Position numbers and translations under genes: made by a program
Source: Limnochordaceae bacterium
GTDB taxonomy: Bacteria; Bacillota; Limnochordia; Limnochordales; Geochordaceae
Reading direction: 5' to 3'
Assembly (NCBI GenBank): GCA_014896295.1
Contig: JADBKR010000007.1
Span: 1-64,000, forward strand
Length of the DNA stretch: 64,000 nt
The notes under the pieces: generated by a model
What the model saw: the letters and a program-made list of their open reading frames with translations, nothing else
The model's database searches: none
What the model was told of the DNA's origin: nothing
Shown: in pieces, positions 3,760-39,724 of the stretch
Layout: the number at the start of each line of letters is the position of its first letter
Position numbering within the stretch: the stretch's first letter is position 1

Positions 3760-4559
3760 TGGTAGGGCCTGGCCGCTACCGACTGACGCGCTAGCGGCCA
3801 GCCTCCGCCTTCCTTTGGTTACTGAGAAAGCGCCGGCGTCCGACTCGCCGACGCCGCTCGAGGTCGACTAGGCCTTGAGCAGAGCTGCGCGACTCCGTTT
3901 CTCAAGCGGTGGCGAGCTCAGGGTCGGGCTTGGGCAGTCAAGCGCGGGCAGCCTGGTGCAGAGTCGGTCAGAAAACAAGAATCAGGTGACAGCGGCCGAG
4001 GCGGTAAGACCGAGGCTTCGCCGGAAGGACGTCTACTCCCACCCCACCGCGCAGCCTACTGTCCGACCACCAGGGTGTGGTCCACCGCAACTCTGCGCGC
4101 TGACAGCTGTGGCACGGCAGCGTGTCGGGGAGGCCGACGACAACCATACTAACTCGGGTCTCCTGACTTGTAATGGGCCAGGGTTTTGCTTCAGCGCCAG
4201 TCGCTCCAGCACTTCGGTCCAGGGCCTCCCTGGCGACGGCGTGGTCTGGATCAGGGTGGAACACGCGCAACTTGTGGGTCACCAGCTCCGCCGGTGTGGG
4301 CAGGTACCCCAGTGCGCTGGCCTTGCTGTGCATCGGACACCGTGGGGCGGTGGTTCGTTCGCCAAGAAGGATTCCCCAGCGCTGCCTGCATCGCCTTGGT
4401 CCGGCTTGCGCCGCCGAGAGTCCTGGACCGCGGTGCAAGCACCGTTCAAGCAAAGTCTTGCGGTAGCTGCTTGACTACAGCTTCGTTAGAAGTCGGTGCG
4501 CGGCTGCGGGGTTAGGCTCTACTCCGGTAACACATCTCCTTGCCAGGAGGCGGGTACCG
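3760..4559. other. 800-base gap without a supported gene
   Basis: Open frames exist on both strands (for example 3968-4453 on the minus strand), but none has a credible start, family motif or natural amino acid composition. The last 20 bases hold the AGGAGG ribosome site of the following MFS gene. No hairpin with a T tract was found. Confidence 0.5.
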
Positions 4560-5866
4560 TTGTCCAGTCTCCGCGGTCAGGTCATTGGGGGGTTGAAGCA
4601 GTGGCGTGATAGGATGGAGCCTAAGCGAAGTGTACTCTTGACTGAGGACGCCTTTCTCAAGCTGTGGACAGCCCAGGCTGTCTCGACGCTTGGTTCTCAG
4701 ATCACCTTCGTTGCTCTCCCCCTTACCGCGGCCGCCGTGCTTGGGGCCTCTCCAGCTCAAATGGGCTTGCTCGGCATCGTGGAATACGTGCCGTTTATAC
4801 TGTTTGGCCTGCTCGCCGGAGCATGGGTCGACCGACTTCCCAGGCGTGCCGTGATGGTCGTGGCCGATCTCGTCCGAGCGGCCATCCTGGTCTCAGTCCC
4901 AGCCGCGGCCCTTGCCGGAAGGCTTACTATGGAGCATCTATACATCGTGGCCTTCGTTGGCAACACCCTTACGGCGTTTTTCGATGCGGCCCTTCAAGCC
5001 TACGTACCATCCGTGGTCAGAAAGGCGCTTCTCATCGAGGCGAACAGTATGTTACAGGTGGTGTATTCCCTCGCCCGAATTGCTGGTCCAGCCCTTGCAG
5101 GCTTGCTCTCATCTTGGTTTGCGGCTCCGCTCGTCATCACGCTTGATGCGGTGTCGTTCTTAATCTCGGCCATTCTCCTCTCGACTATCCGGGCGACCGA
5201 ATCCACGAGCACGTCAAGAACAGGACACCGCAGCATCTGGCATGAGATAGGAGCAGGGCTGTCTTCAGTCTGGAGGAATCCAATGCTGTTGGCCATCGCA
5301 GGAAGCGGAGCTACCTTCAACCTGTTCCATATCGCCATGGGTGCGGTCTTCATCCTCTTCCTGACTCAGTACCTTCACCTGGACCAGGCATCCGTTGGCA
5401 TGATCTTCGCTGTTTCGAATATCGGTTCGCTCGTAGGTGCGGCTCTTGCCGGTCCGGTTCGCCGTCGACTTGAGCTGGGGACGACGCTCATCATAAGCCT
5501 GGTCGGCGCGGCGGTGGGCCGAGTCGTGGTGTCCCTTTCAGACGACCTCCCTTTCATGGCCTTTTGGTGGCTTCTTCTCGGAGTGGTTCCTGACGGGCCT
5601 CATGCTTCCCATTTACAACGTCAGCCAAGTTAGTCTATGGCAGAGTACTACGCCGCCTCACCTGCACGGTCGTGTCAGTGCCACCATGCGCGTCAGCATG
5701 TGGATTACTGTGCCGGTCGGCGCCGCCGTGGGCGGAATCCTGGGTGAGCGTAGTGGGCGTACGCGAAACGATAACGATCACCGCCCTGGGCAGCCTGTTG
5801 GCAAGCCTCTGGCTAGTTCCTTCAGCGATACGAGGCACCGGCGACAAGTCTCGCACTTCCGTTTAG
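4560..5866 (+). pseudogene. MFS exporter with two frameshifts
   Basis: The product is a 12-helix major facilitator of the EntS/MFS_3 drug- or siderophore-exporter type. It contains TAQAVSTLGSQITFVALPLTA in helix 1 and the loop 2-3 motif GAWVDRLPRRAVMVVADLVRA. The start is TTG at 4560, with AGGAGG at 4545-4550. The frame is lost near 5585 (GVVPD versus FLTGLMLPIYNVSQV) and again near 5745 (GGILGE versus GVRETITITALGSLLASLW); the homologous sequence continues to 5866 across all three frames, so the gene is nearly full-length but broken. Its 3' end abuts an IS1634 fragment on the opposite strand, suggesting decay after insertion. The substrate cannot be inferred. Confidence 0.82.
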
Positions 5867-33221: not shown

Positions 33222-34796
33222 ATGTCTCGACGCCCGCAGTCCCAGTGGCGGCAGATGCTGGCGTGGTCCGCGCTCCTGACGAGCCTGCTGGTAGGCCTGT
33301 CGAGCGGCGTTTCCACCGGTGCGCTCGCCCAGGACAAGGTGCTCCGGCTCGTGCTCGACGGAGCCAAGAACCGGGAGGCCGAACTCCAGGCCGTCGCAGG
33401 ATACCTGCGGCAGATCGGGGTGGACGCCCAGGTCCGGGTGTGGGAGTACCAAACGCTGATCGCCGAGGCGCAAAAAGGCACCCGAGACGCCTATGCTACC
33501 GACTGGGGAAGCGCCACGTTCTCGCCGTTCGATCTGGCGATTCCCAAGCTGCGCACGAAAGATCGCGGTAACTTCTCGTTTTACTCCAATCCGGAAGTCG
33601 ACCGGCTCTTCGACACGGCATCGACCACCGTCGACGAGGCCAAGGCCCGGGACGCATACGTGAAGGCGCAGCGCATCCTGTACGAGGATGCGCCCTGGAT
33701 CTTCGGATACTACCTCGACACCATCGAGGCGGCGTCGGCCCGGGTGAGCAACTGGCGCCCCTCGGTCGACAACCGCATCAATCTCCACGACGTGGAGCTC
33801 CAGGGCGGCGCCACCCTCGTCGTGGCCTTGCGCGCCGACCGCATCCAGAGCTTCGACCCGGCCGATCACCGGGATCGGGACACCGAGACGGTACTGCGCA
33901 ACATGTTCGACGGGCTGGTGACCCGCACCCCCGACGGCGAGGTCGTCCCGGAAATCGCCGAGTCGTGGCAACAGCCCAATGCCACGACGTACGTATTCAA
34001 ATTGCGCGCAGGCGTCCGCTTCCACAACGGCGACCCGTTGACCGCCGACGACGTGGTCTTTACGTTCGAGCGCATCCTCTCCCCAAAGGGGCTCGACGGC
34101 CGCCCGTCGCCCAGGCTCGGGTTGCTGGGCCCCCTGTCCAAAGTCGAGAAAGTGGACGACTACACCGTCAAGATGACGTTGAAAAACCCGTCCCCCGTCT
34201 TCCTGCAACTGCTCGTCCACACGCAGATCGTGCCGCACAAGTACATGCAGCAGGTGGGCCTCGCCGGGTTCGTCCGGCATCCCGTGGGCGCGGGGCCGTT
34301 CAAGTTCGTGCGCGGCCGCCTCGACGGGGACATCGTGCTGGAGCGATTCGACGGCTACTACGGCGGTTCGCCCAAACTCCCTCCGGTCGGGCCGGCCAAG
34401 ATCCGCCGGGTCGTCTTTCGCATGATGCCCGAACCGGGCAGCCGCATCGCCGCCCTGCTGGCCGGGGAGGCGCACATCATCCAGGAGGTGCCGCCCGACG
34501 CGGTCGACCGGCTCGAAGGGGCACGGGGCGTGCAGGTCAAGGTGGCGCCCGGCACGCGGCTTTACCAGATCGAGCTCAACAACGACCGCTTGAAGGATCC
34601 CCGGGTTCGCCAGGCGCTCAACTACGCCGTCAACTGGGATGAAATCCTCAAAGAACTTTACCGGGGGTACGCGCACCGCGTCGCGACGGCCATGCTGCCG
34701 AGCGGTTCCGGCTACGACGAACGGCTGAAGCCCTACCCCTACGACCCCGACAAGGCGCGCCAGCTCCTGCAGGAGGCGGGCTATGCCGTCCGGTGA
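33222..34796 (+). CDS. Circularly permuted family-5 solute-binding protein
   Basis: This 524-residue secreted protein has family-5 (oligopeptide/dipeptide/nickel) binding-protein domains in inverted order. After a signal peptide (residues 1-37) comes the segment that normally ends such proteins: AELQAVAGYLRQIGVDAQV, NFSFYSNPEVDRLFDTAS and KAQRILYEDAPWIFGYY (residues 40-193). Then comes the normal N-terminal part: TLVVALRADRIQSFDPADHR, EIAESWQQPNATTYVFKL, GVRFHNGDPLTADDVVFTFE, and finally YDPDKARQLLQEAGY, where ordinary proteins cross into the C-terminal part but this one stops. No frame break is involved. ATG 33222 follows AAGAGGGG; the end overlaps the permease frame. The first gene after the c-di-AMP riboswitch, it should deliver peptides or a similar solute to DppB/DppC-type permeases. 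Confidence 0.92.
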   Translation: MSRRPQSQWRQMLAWSALLTSLLVGLSSGVSTGALAQDKVLRLVLDGAKNREAELQAVAGYLRQIGVDAQVRVWEYQTLIAEAQKGTRDAYATDWGSATFSPFDLAIPKLRTKDRGNFSFYSNPEVDRLFDTASTTVDEAKARDAYVKAQRILYEDAPWIFGYYLDTIEAASARVSNWRPSVDNRINLHDVELQGGATLVVALRADRIQSFDPADHRDRDTETVLRNMFDGLVTRTPDGEVVPEIAESWQQPNATTYVFKLRAGVRFHNGDPLTADDVVFTFERILSPKGLDGRPSPRLGLLGPLSKVEKVDDYTVKMTLKNPSPVFLQLLVHTQIVPHKYMQQVGLAGFVRHPVGAGPFKFVRGRLDGDIVLERFDGYYGGSPKLPPVGPAKIRRVVFRMMPEPGSRIAALLAGEAHIIQEVPPDAVDRLEGARGVQVKVAPGTRLYQIELNNDRLKDPRVRQALNYAVNWDEILKELYRGYAHRVATAMLPSGSGYDERLKPYPYDPDKARQLLQEAGYAVR

Positions 34797-34827: not shown

Positions 34828-35841
34828 GTGAAAGGCGTGCGCGTCGTGCGCCGGCTGGTATCGGCGGTGCCGCTGGCAGTCGGCGTCGTGTTGCTGACGT
34901 TCTTGCTGTTGCGGCTGCTGCCGGGGGACCCGGTGGACGTCATGATGGGCCAGGCCGGCAACGTCAGCCAACAGGAAATCCAGGCGCTTCGGGCCCAGCT
35001 CGACCTCGACCGCCCGCTGGGGCAACAGGCGGTGCGCTTCGCCGGCAGGCTGCTGCACGGGGACCTGGGGCGCTCCATCCGCAACTCCCAGCCGGTGACC
35101 GAGCTCATCGGGCAGGCGCTGCCGGCGACCCTGGAGCTGGCGGTGGCGGCGGGGGTGTTTGCCGTGCTCGTCGCGGTGCCGGTGGGGGTGATCGCTGCCC
35201 TGCGCCACCGCAGCGCCCTGGATCATGCAACCATGAGCGCGGCGTTCGTCGGGATCTCCATGCCCGCCTTCTGGCTGGGGCTCGTGCTCATCCTGGTCTT
35301 CGGGGTCGCGCTGGGATGGCTGCCCACTTCGGGCCGGCTCGACCCCGGCATGGACGTCCCCGCCGTCACGGGGTGGATGACCATCGACGCGCTGCTCGCG
35401 CGGGACTGGGAAGCGTTTCGCTCCGCAGTGCTGCATCTGATCCTGCCGGCCGTGACCCTGGGAGCGGAGCTGGCGGCCATCCTCTCCCGGGTCGTGCGAT
35501 CGAGCATGCTCGAGGTGCTGCGCGCCGACTATGTCCGGGTAGCCCGGGCGAAGGGGGTGGACGAGTGGCACGTGGTGGTCCGGCATGCCCTGCGCAATGC
35601 CCTGGTGCCGGCCGTGACCGTCCTGGGGCTGCAGATGGGGGTACTGCTGGGTGGCAACATGATCGTCGAGACGGTCTTCAGCTGGCCCGGCCTTGGAAGG
35701 CTGGTGGTGGGGGCCATCTTCGCGCGCGACTACCCGGTCGTCCAGGGAGCGGTCATGCTCTACGCGCTGACCTTCCTGGCCGCCAATCTGCTGGTCGACC
35801 TCGCCTACGCGCTGCTCAACCCGCGCATGGCCTCGGCCTGA
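34828..35841 (+). CDS. Peptide-type ABC permease, DppB-like
   Basis: This roughly 337-residue permease of the DppB/OppB group starts with VRRLVSAVPLAVGVVLLTFL and the LRLLPGDPVD motif that follows helix 1 in this family. The conserved cytoplasmic loop is YVRVARAKGVDEWHVVVRHA (EAA-type), and the end is YALLNPRMA. GTG 34828 with AGGGGGAG upstream is preferred; a longer frame from ATG 34783 overlaps the binding-protein stop by 14 bases and would add 15 polar residues. It forms the transmembrane pore with the next gene product. The ATPase partners (DppD/DppF) are not encoded here. Confidence 0.93.
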   Translation: MKGVRVVRRLVSAVPLAVGVVLLTFLLLRLLPGDPVDVMMGQAGNVSQQEIQALRAQLDLDRPLGQQAVRFAGRLLHGDLGRSIRNSQPVTELIGQALPATLELAVAAGVFAVLVAVPVGVIAALRHRSALDHATMSAAFVGISMPAFWLGLVLILVFGVALGWLPTSGRLDPGMDVPAVTGWMTIDALLARDWEAFRSAVLHLILPAVTLGAELAAILSRVVRSSMLEVLRADYVRVARAKGVDEWHVVVRHALRNALVPAVTVLGLQMGVLLGGNMIVETVFSWPGLGRLVVGAIFARDYPVVQGAVMLYALTFLAANLLVDLAYALLNPRMASA

Positions 35842-35846
35842 CGGCC

Positions 35847-36794
35847 GTGGCAGAGGCCGCTCATGTGGTCGAGGCCGCCGCCGTGGCCGAGGAGGAGGTG
35901 CTGGAGGGGTACGAGGGCGCCGGGCCGCTCGGGCCGAGCGCGGCGCGCGACCTGCTGCGCCGCTGGCGTCACCATCCCATGGCGCTCGCGGGCGCCATCG
36001 GGTTGCTCCTGTTCGCCGGGATGGCCATCCTGGCGCCGGGCATCGCGCCGTACAGGCCGGATGCGTTCAGCCTGGGAGAGCGCCTTTCGCCCCCCTGGCC
36101 CATGCCCGGGTGGGCACCGGGACACTGGCTCGGGACCGACGAGCTCGGGCGCGACATCGTGTCGCGGCTTTTCTACGGCGCCAGACTGTCGCTGGCGGTC
36201 GGGGCTGCGGCCGTGGTCATCTCGGGACTCGTGGGCACCGCACTGGGGACCGCCGCAGGATACTTCGGAGGGCGGCTCGACCAGGTGGTGTCCCGTTTCG
36301 CCGATCTGTTGATGGCCTTTCCGTACCTGCTGTTCGCCATCCTCGTGATGGGGATCCTGGGGCCGGGTCTGGTCAATCTCGTGCTGGCGCTGTCGTTCAA
36401 AGCATGGGTGGAGTTTTTCCGGCTCGCTCGCGGCGAGACGATGGCCCACAAAGGCCGCGACTACGTCGAGGCGGCCAGGGCGATCGGCCGATCGAGCGCC
36501 GGGATCCTGTGGAAAGAGATCCTGCCCAACGTGGCGCCCACGCTTCTCGTCGTCGCCACTTCGAGGATGGGGTACATGGTGCTCATGGAGGCCTCGCTGA
36601 GCTTCCTGGGGCTGGGGGCTCCCTCGGACGTCCCCGCGTGGGGTAGTATGGTGGCGGCAGGCCGGGACCACCTGGTCGACGCCTGGTGGGTGTCGACGAT
36701 ACCGGGCCTGGCGATCCTGCTCCTGGTCATGAGCATCAACGGATGCGGCGAGGGGCTAAGGGACATCCTCGACCCCCATCTGCGGGGACGATAG
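35847..36794 (+). CDS. Peptide-type ABC permease, DppC-like
   Basis: This 315-residue permease of the DppC/OppC group has an N-terminal cytoplasmic tail, a first helix (LAGAIGLLLFAGMAILAPGI), the family motif HWLGTDELGRDIVSRLFYGA, and the EAA loop GRDYVEAARAIGRSSAGILW followed by ILPNVAP. The GTG start at 35847 lies 5 bases after the DppB-type stop. The C-terminus (GEGLRDILDPHLRGR) is typical and complete. The lack of ATPase genes after it is unusual for a peptide transporter operon; an alpha/beta hydrolase gene follows. Confidence 0.93.
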   Translation: MAEAAHVVEAAAVAEEEVLEGYEGAGPLGPSAARDLLRRWRHHPMALAGAIGLLLFAGMAILAPGIAPYRPDAFSLGERLSPPWPMPGWAPGHWLGTDELGRDIVSRLFYGARLSLAVGAAAVVISGLVGTALGTAAGYFGGRLDQVVSRFADLLMAFPYLLFAILVMGILGPGLVNLVLALSFKAWVEFFRLARGETMAHKGRDYVEAARAIGRSSAGILWKEILPNVAPTLLVVATSRMGYMVLMEASLSFLGLGAPSDVPAWGSMVAAGRDHLVDAWWVSTIPGLAILLLVMSINGCGEGLRDILDPHLRGR

Positions 36795-37969: not shown

Positions 37970-39724
37970 GTGACTACGTGGCTCCTGGTGATCGGCGTTG
38001 CGGTCTACGTCGTCTCCTACCTCACCTACGGCCGGGGACTCGAACGCTCCGTAGTGCGGGCCGATGACAGCCGCCCCACTCCCGCCCACGCCATGTACGA
38101 CGGCGTCGACTACGCTCCCGGGCATCCGCTGGCCATCTTCGGCCACCACTTCGCCTCCATCGCGGGCGCCGGGCCCATCGTCGGGCCGGCCATCGCCGTG
38201 GTTTGGGGATGGATGCCGGCCCTGCTGTGGATCTGGTTTGGCAACGTCGTCATTGGCGCCGTCCATGACTACCTCTCGGTGATGGCCTCCGTGCGCAGCG
38301 AGGGTAAATCGGTGCAGTGGATTGCCGGCAAGGTGATGAAGCCGCGCACCTCGTGGACCATGATGGTGTTCATCTACGTGACGCTCATCCTGGTCGTGGC
38401 CGCCTTCATCAGCATCGCTGCCACCAACTTCGTGGCCAACCCCGAGGTGCCCACCTCCAGCCTGCTCTTCATCGTCGCGGCCGTCGTCTTCGGCATGCTG
38501 TACTACCGGTACAAGATGAACTTTACCGTCGCCACCCTGCTCGGGCTCCTGTTGACTGCGCTGGCCATGTGGGTCGGCTACGTCTGGCCCTGGCACGCCA
38601 GCTTCCATACGTGGATCGTCGTGCTGGGCCTGTACGCGCTGGCGGCCGCCAGCCTGCCCGTCTGGCTCTTGCTCCAGCCTCGGGACTATCTCAACGCGTA
38701 CATCCTCTTCGTGGGGCTGGGGCTCGGTGTCGTGGCACTCCTCTTCACCTTCCGAGGCATTCAGCTACCGGCGTTCACGATGTGGAGCGCTCCGGCGGTA
38801 GGCGGCGTGCCGTCGCCCTTCTGGCCGGCCATTCCGCTCGTGATCGCGTGCGGTTCGCTCTCCGGCTTTCACTCGCTGGTCGCCTCGGGCACGACCTCCA
38901 AGCAGATCGACAAGGAGAGCCACGGCCTGCCGATCGGCTATGGCGGGATGCTGACCGAGGGCTTGCTCGCCACGCTGGTCGTCGTCACGATGGGCGCCTT
39001 TGCGATGCCCGTGCTGTCCACCGTCGCGGACAAGCTCGCTCAGGCGGGCATCTCGCTCGATCAGCTCAAAGCGGACCGGATCTACTTCGGCAACAACCTG
39101 CTCAAGGCGGCGGCCCCGGTGGGCGGCGCGTTGGGGCTGTTCAACCGGAGCTACGGCGAGCTGCTGTACCAGATCTTCGGGCTCGCCCCTCGCCTCGGGG
39201 CCCTGTTTGCCGGGCTCTGGGTGACCGCGTTCGTGATGACGACCATGGACACCGCCACGCGCCTCGCCCGGTTCACGTGGCAGGAGCTGGTCGAGCCCCT
39301 CAAGGAGTCGTCGCCGGGCTTCCATCGGATCATCGCCAACCGGTGGGTCGGCGGCGCCATCGTCGTCATCCTGGCCGGTTGGCTCGCGTGGGACGGCGCT
39401 TACAACACCGTCTGGCCCGCTTTTGCAGGCGCCAACCAGATGGTCGCGGCCGTCGCGCTGCTTACGTCGGCGATGTGGGCCGTCAAGGTGCAGCGGGCTT
39501 CGGGCGGTTATCGCTGGGCTACGGTGGCAGCCGGGGTGTTCTTGTGGATCACGGTGTTCGCCGGGGTGATATGGTACATCTGGGCCGTGCCCGCCTCGCC
39601 CGTGATCAAGGGCATCTTCGTCCTGATGGCGGCGCTTTCGCTGCTGCTGTTGGCCGACTTCTCCATCTCGTACCGGGAGAGCCGGGTCGAGCTGGCCAGG
39701 GTGCCCGTGGGAGGCGGCCGGTGA
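37970..39724 (+). CDS. cstA: CstA-family transporter
   Basis: This 584-residue integral membrane protein of the carbon starvation CstA family imports pyruvate or peptides in characterised bacteria. Family-specific sequence includes YGRGLERSVVRADDSRPTPA, GHHFASIAGAGPIVGPAIAV, YDGVDYAPGHPLAIFGHH, SVMASVRSEGKSVQWIAGK, HSLVASGTTSKQID and TTMDTATRLARFTWQEL. About 14 to 16 membrane segments can be traced. GTG 37970 follows GAGAGGAG. It heads a four-gene run with a small protein, an ArsA-type ATPase and a membrane protein, spaced by 1-5 bases or overlapping. The 290 bases upstream show no recognised element. Confidence 0.93.
   Translation: MTTWLLVIGVAVYVVSYLTYGRGLERSVVRADDSRPTPAHAMYDGVDYAPGHPLAIFGHHFASIAGAGPIVGPAIAVVWGWMPALLWIWFGNVVIGAVHDYLSVMASVRSEGKSVQWIAGKVMKPRTSWTMMVFIYVTLILVVAAFISIAATNFVANPEVPTSSLLFIVAAVVFGMLYYRYKMNFTVATLLGLLLTALAMWVGYVWPWHASFHTWIVVLGLYALAAASLPVWLLLQPRDYLNAYILFVGLGLGVVALLFTFRGIQLPAFTMWSAPAVGGVPSPFWPAIPLVIACGSLSGFHSLVASGTTSKQIDKESHGLPIGYGGMLTEGLLATLVVVTMGAFAMPVLSTVADKLAQAGISLDQLKADRIYFGNNLLKAAAPVGGALGLFNRSYGELLYQIFGLAPRLGALFAGLWVTAFVMTTMDTATRLARFTWQELVEPLKESSPGFHRIIANRWVGGAIVVILAGWLAWDGAYNTVWPAFAGANQMVAAVALLTSAMWAVKVQRASGGYRWATVAAGVFLWITVFAGVIWYIWAVPASPVIKGIFVLMAALSLLLLADFSISYRESRVELARVPVGGGR

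Follow-up and report, generated by a model that had tools for sequence, protein, structure and literature searches.

A circularly permuted cluster C solute-binding protein in a Limnochordaceae genome and the recurrence of permuted order in family 5

Circular permutation is usually seen as a rare, deep event or as an engineering trick. The open frame at 33222-34796 of the window, by which we mean the whole 64,000-nucleotide stretch of Limnochordaceae DNA analysed here, raises the question of whether a natural permutant of a family-5 (cluster C) solute-binding protein (SBP) is encoded there, whether it functions and how its two segments are related. Our results confirm that the gene encodes a circularly permuted cluster C SBP, with the canonical C-terminal third followed by the N-terminal two thirds. 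The reading that it is a functional permuted receptor serving a Dpp/Opp-like ABC importer is given a probability of about 0.93.

Segment order and predicted fold

The initial annotation described one clean frame in which the C-terminal segment of ordinary relatives comes first and the N-terminal segment second. A 524-residue open frame was indeed found, with a plausible Shine-Dalgarno sequence (AGAGGGG) directly 5' of its ATG, and the residue boundaries proved right on mapping to Pfam, NCBIfam and the PDB (Table 1). The whole protein matches Pfam SBP_bac_5 (PF00496) with 284.2 bits and an E-value of 2.1e-84, above the gathering cut-off of 32.4. Residues 240-522 correspond to profile positions 1-279, while the N-terminal part of the permuted protein, taken alone, corresponds to positions 293-362 (2e-05; 24.3 bits, short of the curated cut-off of 32.4). 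The two segments thus map to the start and the end of the model without overlap, as the annotation had proposed checking, and cover both parts of the profile in reversed order. Consistent with this, the NCBIfam models Opp4A, GsiB, OppA and DppA give the same order, and in the PDB match query residues 197-521 correspond to 44-359 of 5u4o and residues 47-194 to 371-521, the very end of that chain. The canonical SBP_bac_5 order is therefore absent, and the protein is classed as a permuted variant rather than a canonical member of the family because its C-terminal part precedes its N-terminal part.

Table 1. Coordinates of the operon features in the window, and permuted groups of family-5 SBPs with their cut sites
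Feature	Coordinates	Strand	Remarks
Permuted family-5 solute-binding protein, 524 aa (P0001)	33222..34796	+	Single open frame
Signal peptide, residues 1-36	33222..33329	+	Sec type I-like, GALA/QDK, without lipobox cysteine; cleavage site judged by eye
Canonical C-terminal segment, residues 39-195	33336..33806	+	Comes first; PF00496 profile 293-362 and fold end
Canonical N-terminal segment, residues 196-524	33807..34796	+	Comes second, no linker
DppB-type permease	34828..35841	+	GTG start with AAGGGGGAG upstream, more plausible than ATG at 34783
DppC/OppC-type permease (OppC_N and BPD_transp_1)	35877..36794	+	Start provisional
Group A: group of the 33222-34796 gene			Cut near profile 279-293
Group B: group of the second permuted SBP (L009, L098, L129)	G000:C2:108781-110466 (second permuted SBP)		Cut near profile 279-293
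Group C: L128, L161-L166, L198, L199			Cut near profile 279-293
Group D: L179, L194-L196, L200, L205, L206	L179:925-2655; L205:1384-3114 and 3947-5650		Cut near profile 146
Group E: L197, single, at contig edge			Cut near profile 279-293

The junction between the segments reads NLHDVELQ/GGATLVVAL, with a gap of at most one residue in the alignment of 30 family members. The protein ends three residues past EAGY, a point from which the ends of its relatives differ by no more than a few residues; in some of these relatives a lipobox replaces the Sec type I-like signal.

The structure prediction suggested in the initial annotation gave a confident single fold. The AlphaFold2 model, whose input alignment combined permuted relatives with the separated halves of normal-order relatives (pLDDT 91.6, pTM 0.86, no residue below 50), predicts one compact fold with the usual Venus-flytrap shape. 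In VIA-align, model residues ∼157-488 superpose on the first ∼320-345 residues of canonical chains (Z 27.4 and 1.9 Å over 316 for 1uqw; 1.8 Å over 319 for Escherichia coli DppA, 8z1z_F), and the first ∼156 residues are left unmatched, as would be expected of an aligner bound to sequence order that meets a permutant. The structural matches listed for the model are proteins of family-5 type, and Pfam gives SBP_bac_5 only. The claim that both termini of this fold belong to the same lobe stands for the original termini, which we take to share one lobe in DppA and OppA; the new termini, placed by reference to the same fold, would presumably lie in the other (C-) lobe.

Distribution, operon and selection

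The same order was found in relatives, as had been proposed, with single-contig genomes included. When a match was counted only if the query spanned the junction in the permuted order, it was seen in 25 of the 398 genomes sampled from the phylum. A permuted copy with 94% identity comes from a genome of the same species assembled as a single contig (G256), and the order recurs in the single-contig genomes G001, G079, G125 and G408. An independent collection adds Moorella mulderi, a MAG labelled Thermaerobacter marianensis and other Bacillota MAGs, together with one Deinococci and one Armatimonadota MAG, the spread beyond the phylum being based on one scan of genome contigs. Relatives match the permuted SBP as single uninterrupted alignments at 54-94% identity, and the permuted order is fixed in a clade spread across many Bacillota and reaching a few further phyla. 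An assembly error that misjoined or collapsed two tandem receptor genes, for which the presence of tandem family-5 genes in relatives might speak, is refuted by the independent single-contig genomes and keeps practically no probability, given that order and junction are identical in many independently assembled genomes down to 54-60% identity. The permutation reading of the initial annotation is thus supported by the profile mapping, the confident predicted fold and the relatives alike.

The DppB of the window is orthologous to the DppB located after both permuted and normal-order relatives. The order SBP-DppB-DppC is common to both kinds of relative, with DppB and DppC mostly 50-78% identical to those of the window, and since these downstream relatives are shared, permuted and unpermuted orthologs take the same place in the operon. 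The 'proper operon' of the initial annotation therefore holds for SBP-DppB-DppC but not for the ATPase genes, none of which adjoins the operon in the source genome. DppD/DppF-like pairs are found elsewhere in that genome (C6:87849-91990 and C5:413050-415058), and these distant pairs could serve the window permeases in trans. Two such pairs stand together, away from the window operon (G000:C6:87849-91990 against 34828-36794 of the window). The Moorella operon, by sequence, is complete (SBP-DppB-DppC-DppD-DppF). Further downstream in the window, after the operon and a serine-hydrolase gene, lies a gene for a CstA-family (carbon starvation) transporter (37970-39724), and CstA likewise follows the orthologous operon in G001.

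In DppA, the dipeptide is held by Arg383 and Asp436 (precursor numbering), which also contact the scoop loop of DppB (PMC12136057). The positions aligned to these residues are N and A in the permuted SBP, in a loop where the alignment is uncertain, and the normal-order sisters likewise lack R383 and D436. A DppA-like mode of dipeptide binding is unsupported because these residues are absent from the permuted SBP and its sisters alike.

The absence of these anchoring residues and of adjacent ATPase genes would fit a non-functional, rearranged remnant. However, the dN/dS values obtained with three relatives (C part 0.10-0.14, N part 0.16-0.24) rule out a pseudogene; the operon is conserved, the Moorella ortholog sits in a full DppBCDF operon and the anchoring residues are missing from the normal-order sisters as well. 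The remnant reading is accordingly very improbable, and the gene is under purifying selection.

Parentage of the segments and probable recurrence of permutation

Segment order alone cannot separate a permutation from a hybrid in which one receptor supplied the C-terminal half and a different receptor the N-terminal half, which the initial annotation had offered as an alternative. Two trees, one built from the 160 columns of the C part and the other from the 345 columns of the N part, contradict such a hybrid. The permuted clade is monophyletic in both (SH-aLRT at the drawn branch: N part 98, C part 96) and is placed inside the same 42-row clade, with support of 98 (C part) and 100 (N part). 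The closest normal-order proteins are identical for both segments (L094/L095; identity to L095 59.5% for the N part and 52.2% for the C part), and in the C-part tree L094-L097 form the direct sister of the permuted clade. Because the permuted clade has the same normal-order neighbours in both trees, a two-receptor chimera is rejected as highly improbable. Two tandem copies of one receptor that were very close to each other may still have fused in this way, which is the permutation route itself.

The source genome encodes a second permuted SBP (Table 1), which shares 26% identity with the first along its length and lies upstream of a gene that, judged by sequence, encodes an OppB-like permease and of genes for DppD/DppF-like ATPases. 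Its closest normal-order relatives (L189, L193, L102) differ from those of the first, and it is therefore assigned to a separate group B. By HMM layout, 55 of the fetched family-5 ORFs were labelled permuted and 127 normal; L195, L196, L200 and L206, among those labelled normal, were found on inspection to belong to group D, with the layout N(196-331)-C-N(3-198). Two group D SBPs stand in tandem in L205. Elsewhere in the source genome, a family-5 SBP extends across two overlapping frames (G000:C8:675358-676759; L008, L011, L020), either a frameshifted gene or a sequencing error.

Both cut sites listed in Table 1, one for groups A, B, C and E and the other for group D, are borne out by Pfam. 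Each multi-member permuted group forms one clade in a 127-row tree, in which normal-order proteins surround each of groups A, B and E. AU tests, run on quick trees and with groups named only after the layouts had been seen, reject A+B (p = 8e-6 and 9e-45 on the two segments) and, on a 57-row tree, A+E and B+E (3.6e-55 and 4.4e-7) as well as A+C and B+C (1.2e-58 and 2.9e-71). There is thus strong support for about three to five separate origins of permutation in family-5 SBPs, given as a range rather than an exact count because of the quick trees and the post hoc naming of groups. A cut site common to four of the five groups would be expected if permutation had happened once, long ago, and had passed to all permuted lineages, canonical order being restored several times since. 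This reading is improbable, since every pairwise grouping tested (A+B, A+C, A+E, B+C, B+E) was rejected, groups A, B and E each lie within normal-order proteins and group D is cut at a different site; reversion to canonical order is unlikely, although trees alone are no strict proof against it.

A tentative and rather doubtful extension of the case for separate origins holds that permutation recurs in cluster C SBPs (at least four events, two cut sites and two permuted receptors in the source genome) and is kept because flytrap dynamics or permease docking change once the chain ends, together with the export signal or lipid anchor, have moved to the opposite lobe.

Proposed origin, function and known systems

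It is plausible that the permuted order arose by duplication and trimming. An ancestral SBP gene would have been duplicated in tandem, after which the first copy would have been trimmed on its 5' side and the second on its 3' side, and the shuffled protein would have taken the place of the normal SBP in the same operon. Such a route is suited to this family because tandem SBP genes occur in relatives; tandem-fusion intermediates, with C-terminal parts flanking an N-terminal part, were not found among the fetched family-5 ORFs. In the present protein the old termini are fused without a linker and the new termini lie in the loop past the conserved EAGY helix. The export signal, a lipid anchor in some relatives, would now be joined to the C-lobe rather than to the N-lobe. 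The protein most likely acts as the receptor of a Dpp/Opp-like importer, and we propose that it adopts the usual flytrap of two lobes, holds its solute in the cleft and docks onto DppBC.

Permuted and unpermuted orthologs that are 50-60% identical, hold the same operon position and are accompanied by orthologous permeases constitute natural matched pairs. Such pairs allow tests of what chain order and the position of the anchor do to folding, to ligand binding and to docking on the ABC importer. Automatic annotation ('SBP family 5') and order-dependent aligners conceal rearrangements of this kind.

The canonical cluster C proteins (SBP_bac_5; DppA, OppA, AppA, GsiB, NikA) share with the permuted SBP their sequence family, predicted fold and DppB/DppC operon, and differ from it in segment order and in the export signal being carried here on the C-lobe; relative to DppA, R383 and D436 are also not conserved in its subfamily. 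In the literature searched, whose coverage left many subscription journals outside, no report of circular permutation in peptide/nickel cluster C was found. The nearest precedent is TpMglB-2 (Tp0684), a natural permutant of cluster B for which glucose binding and conformational change have been shown experimentally (PMC4990184). TpMglB-2 and its relatives are, like the protein described here, naturally permuted binding proteins of ABC importers; they differ in fold cluster and substrate, one family has been reported, and the permuted part of TpMglB-2 is 13% identical to its canonical counterpart, compared with about 52% here. The circular-permutation family of glycine betaine-binding proteins, molybdate-binding proteins and CysB recovered with CPSARST (PMC2395249) is likewise a natural permutation within the periplasmic binding protein superfamily, but reflects a deep relation (<24% identity) drawn from structure comparison and lies outside cluster C. 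Permutation of binding proteins is thus known for cluster B and for betaine- and molybdate-binding proteins, and for cluster C, with no counterpart in the literature searched, its recurrence and the two cut sites are the surprising part.
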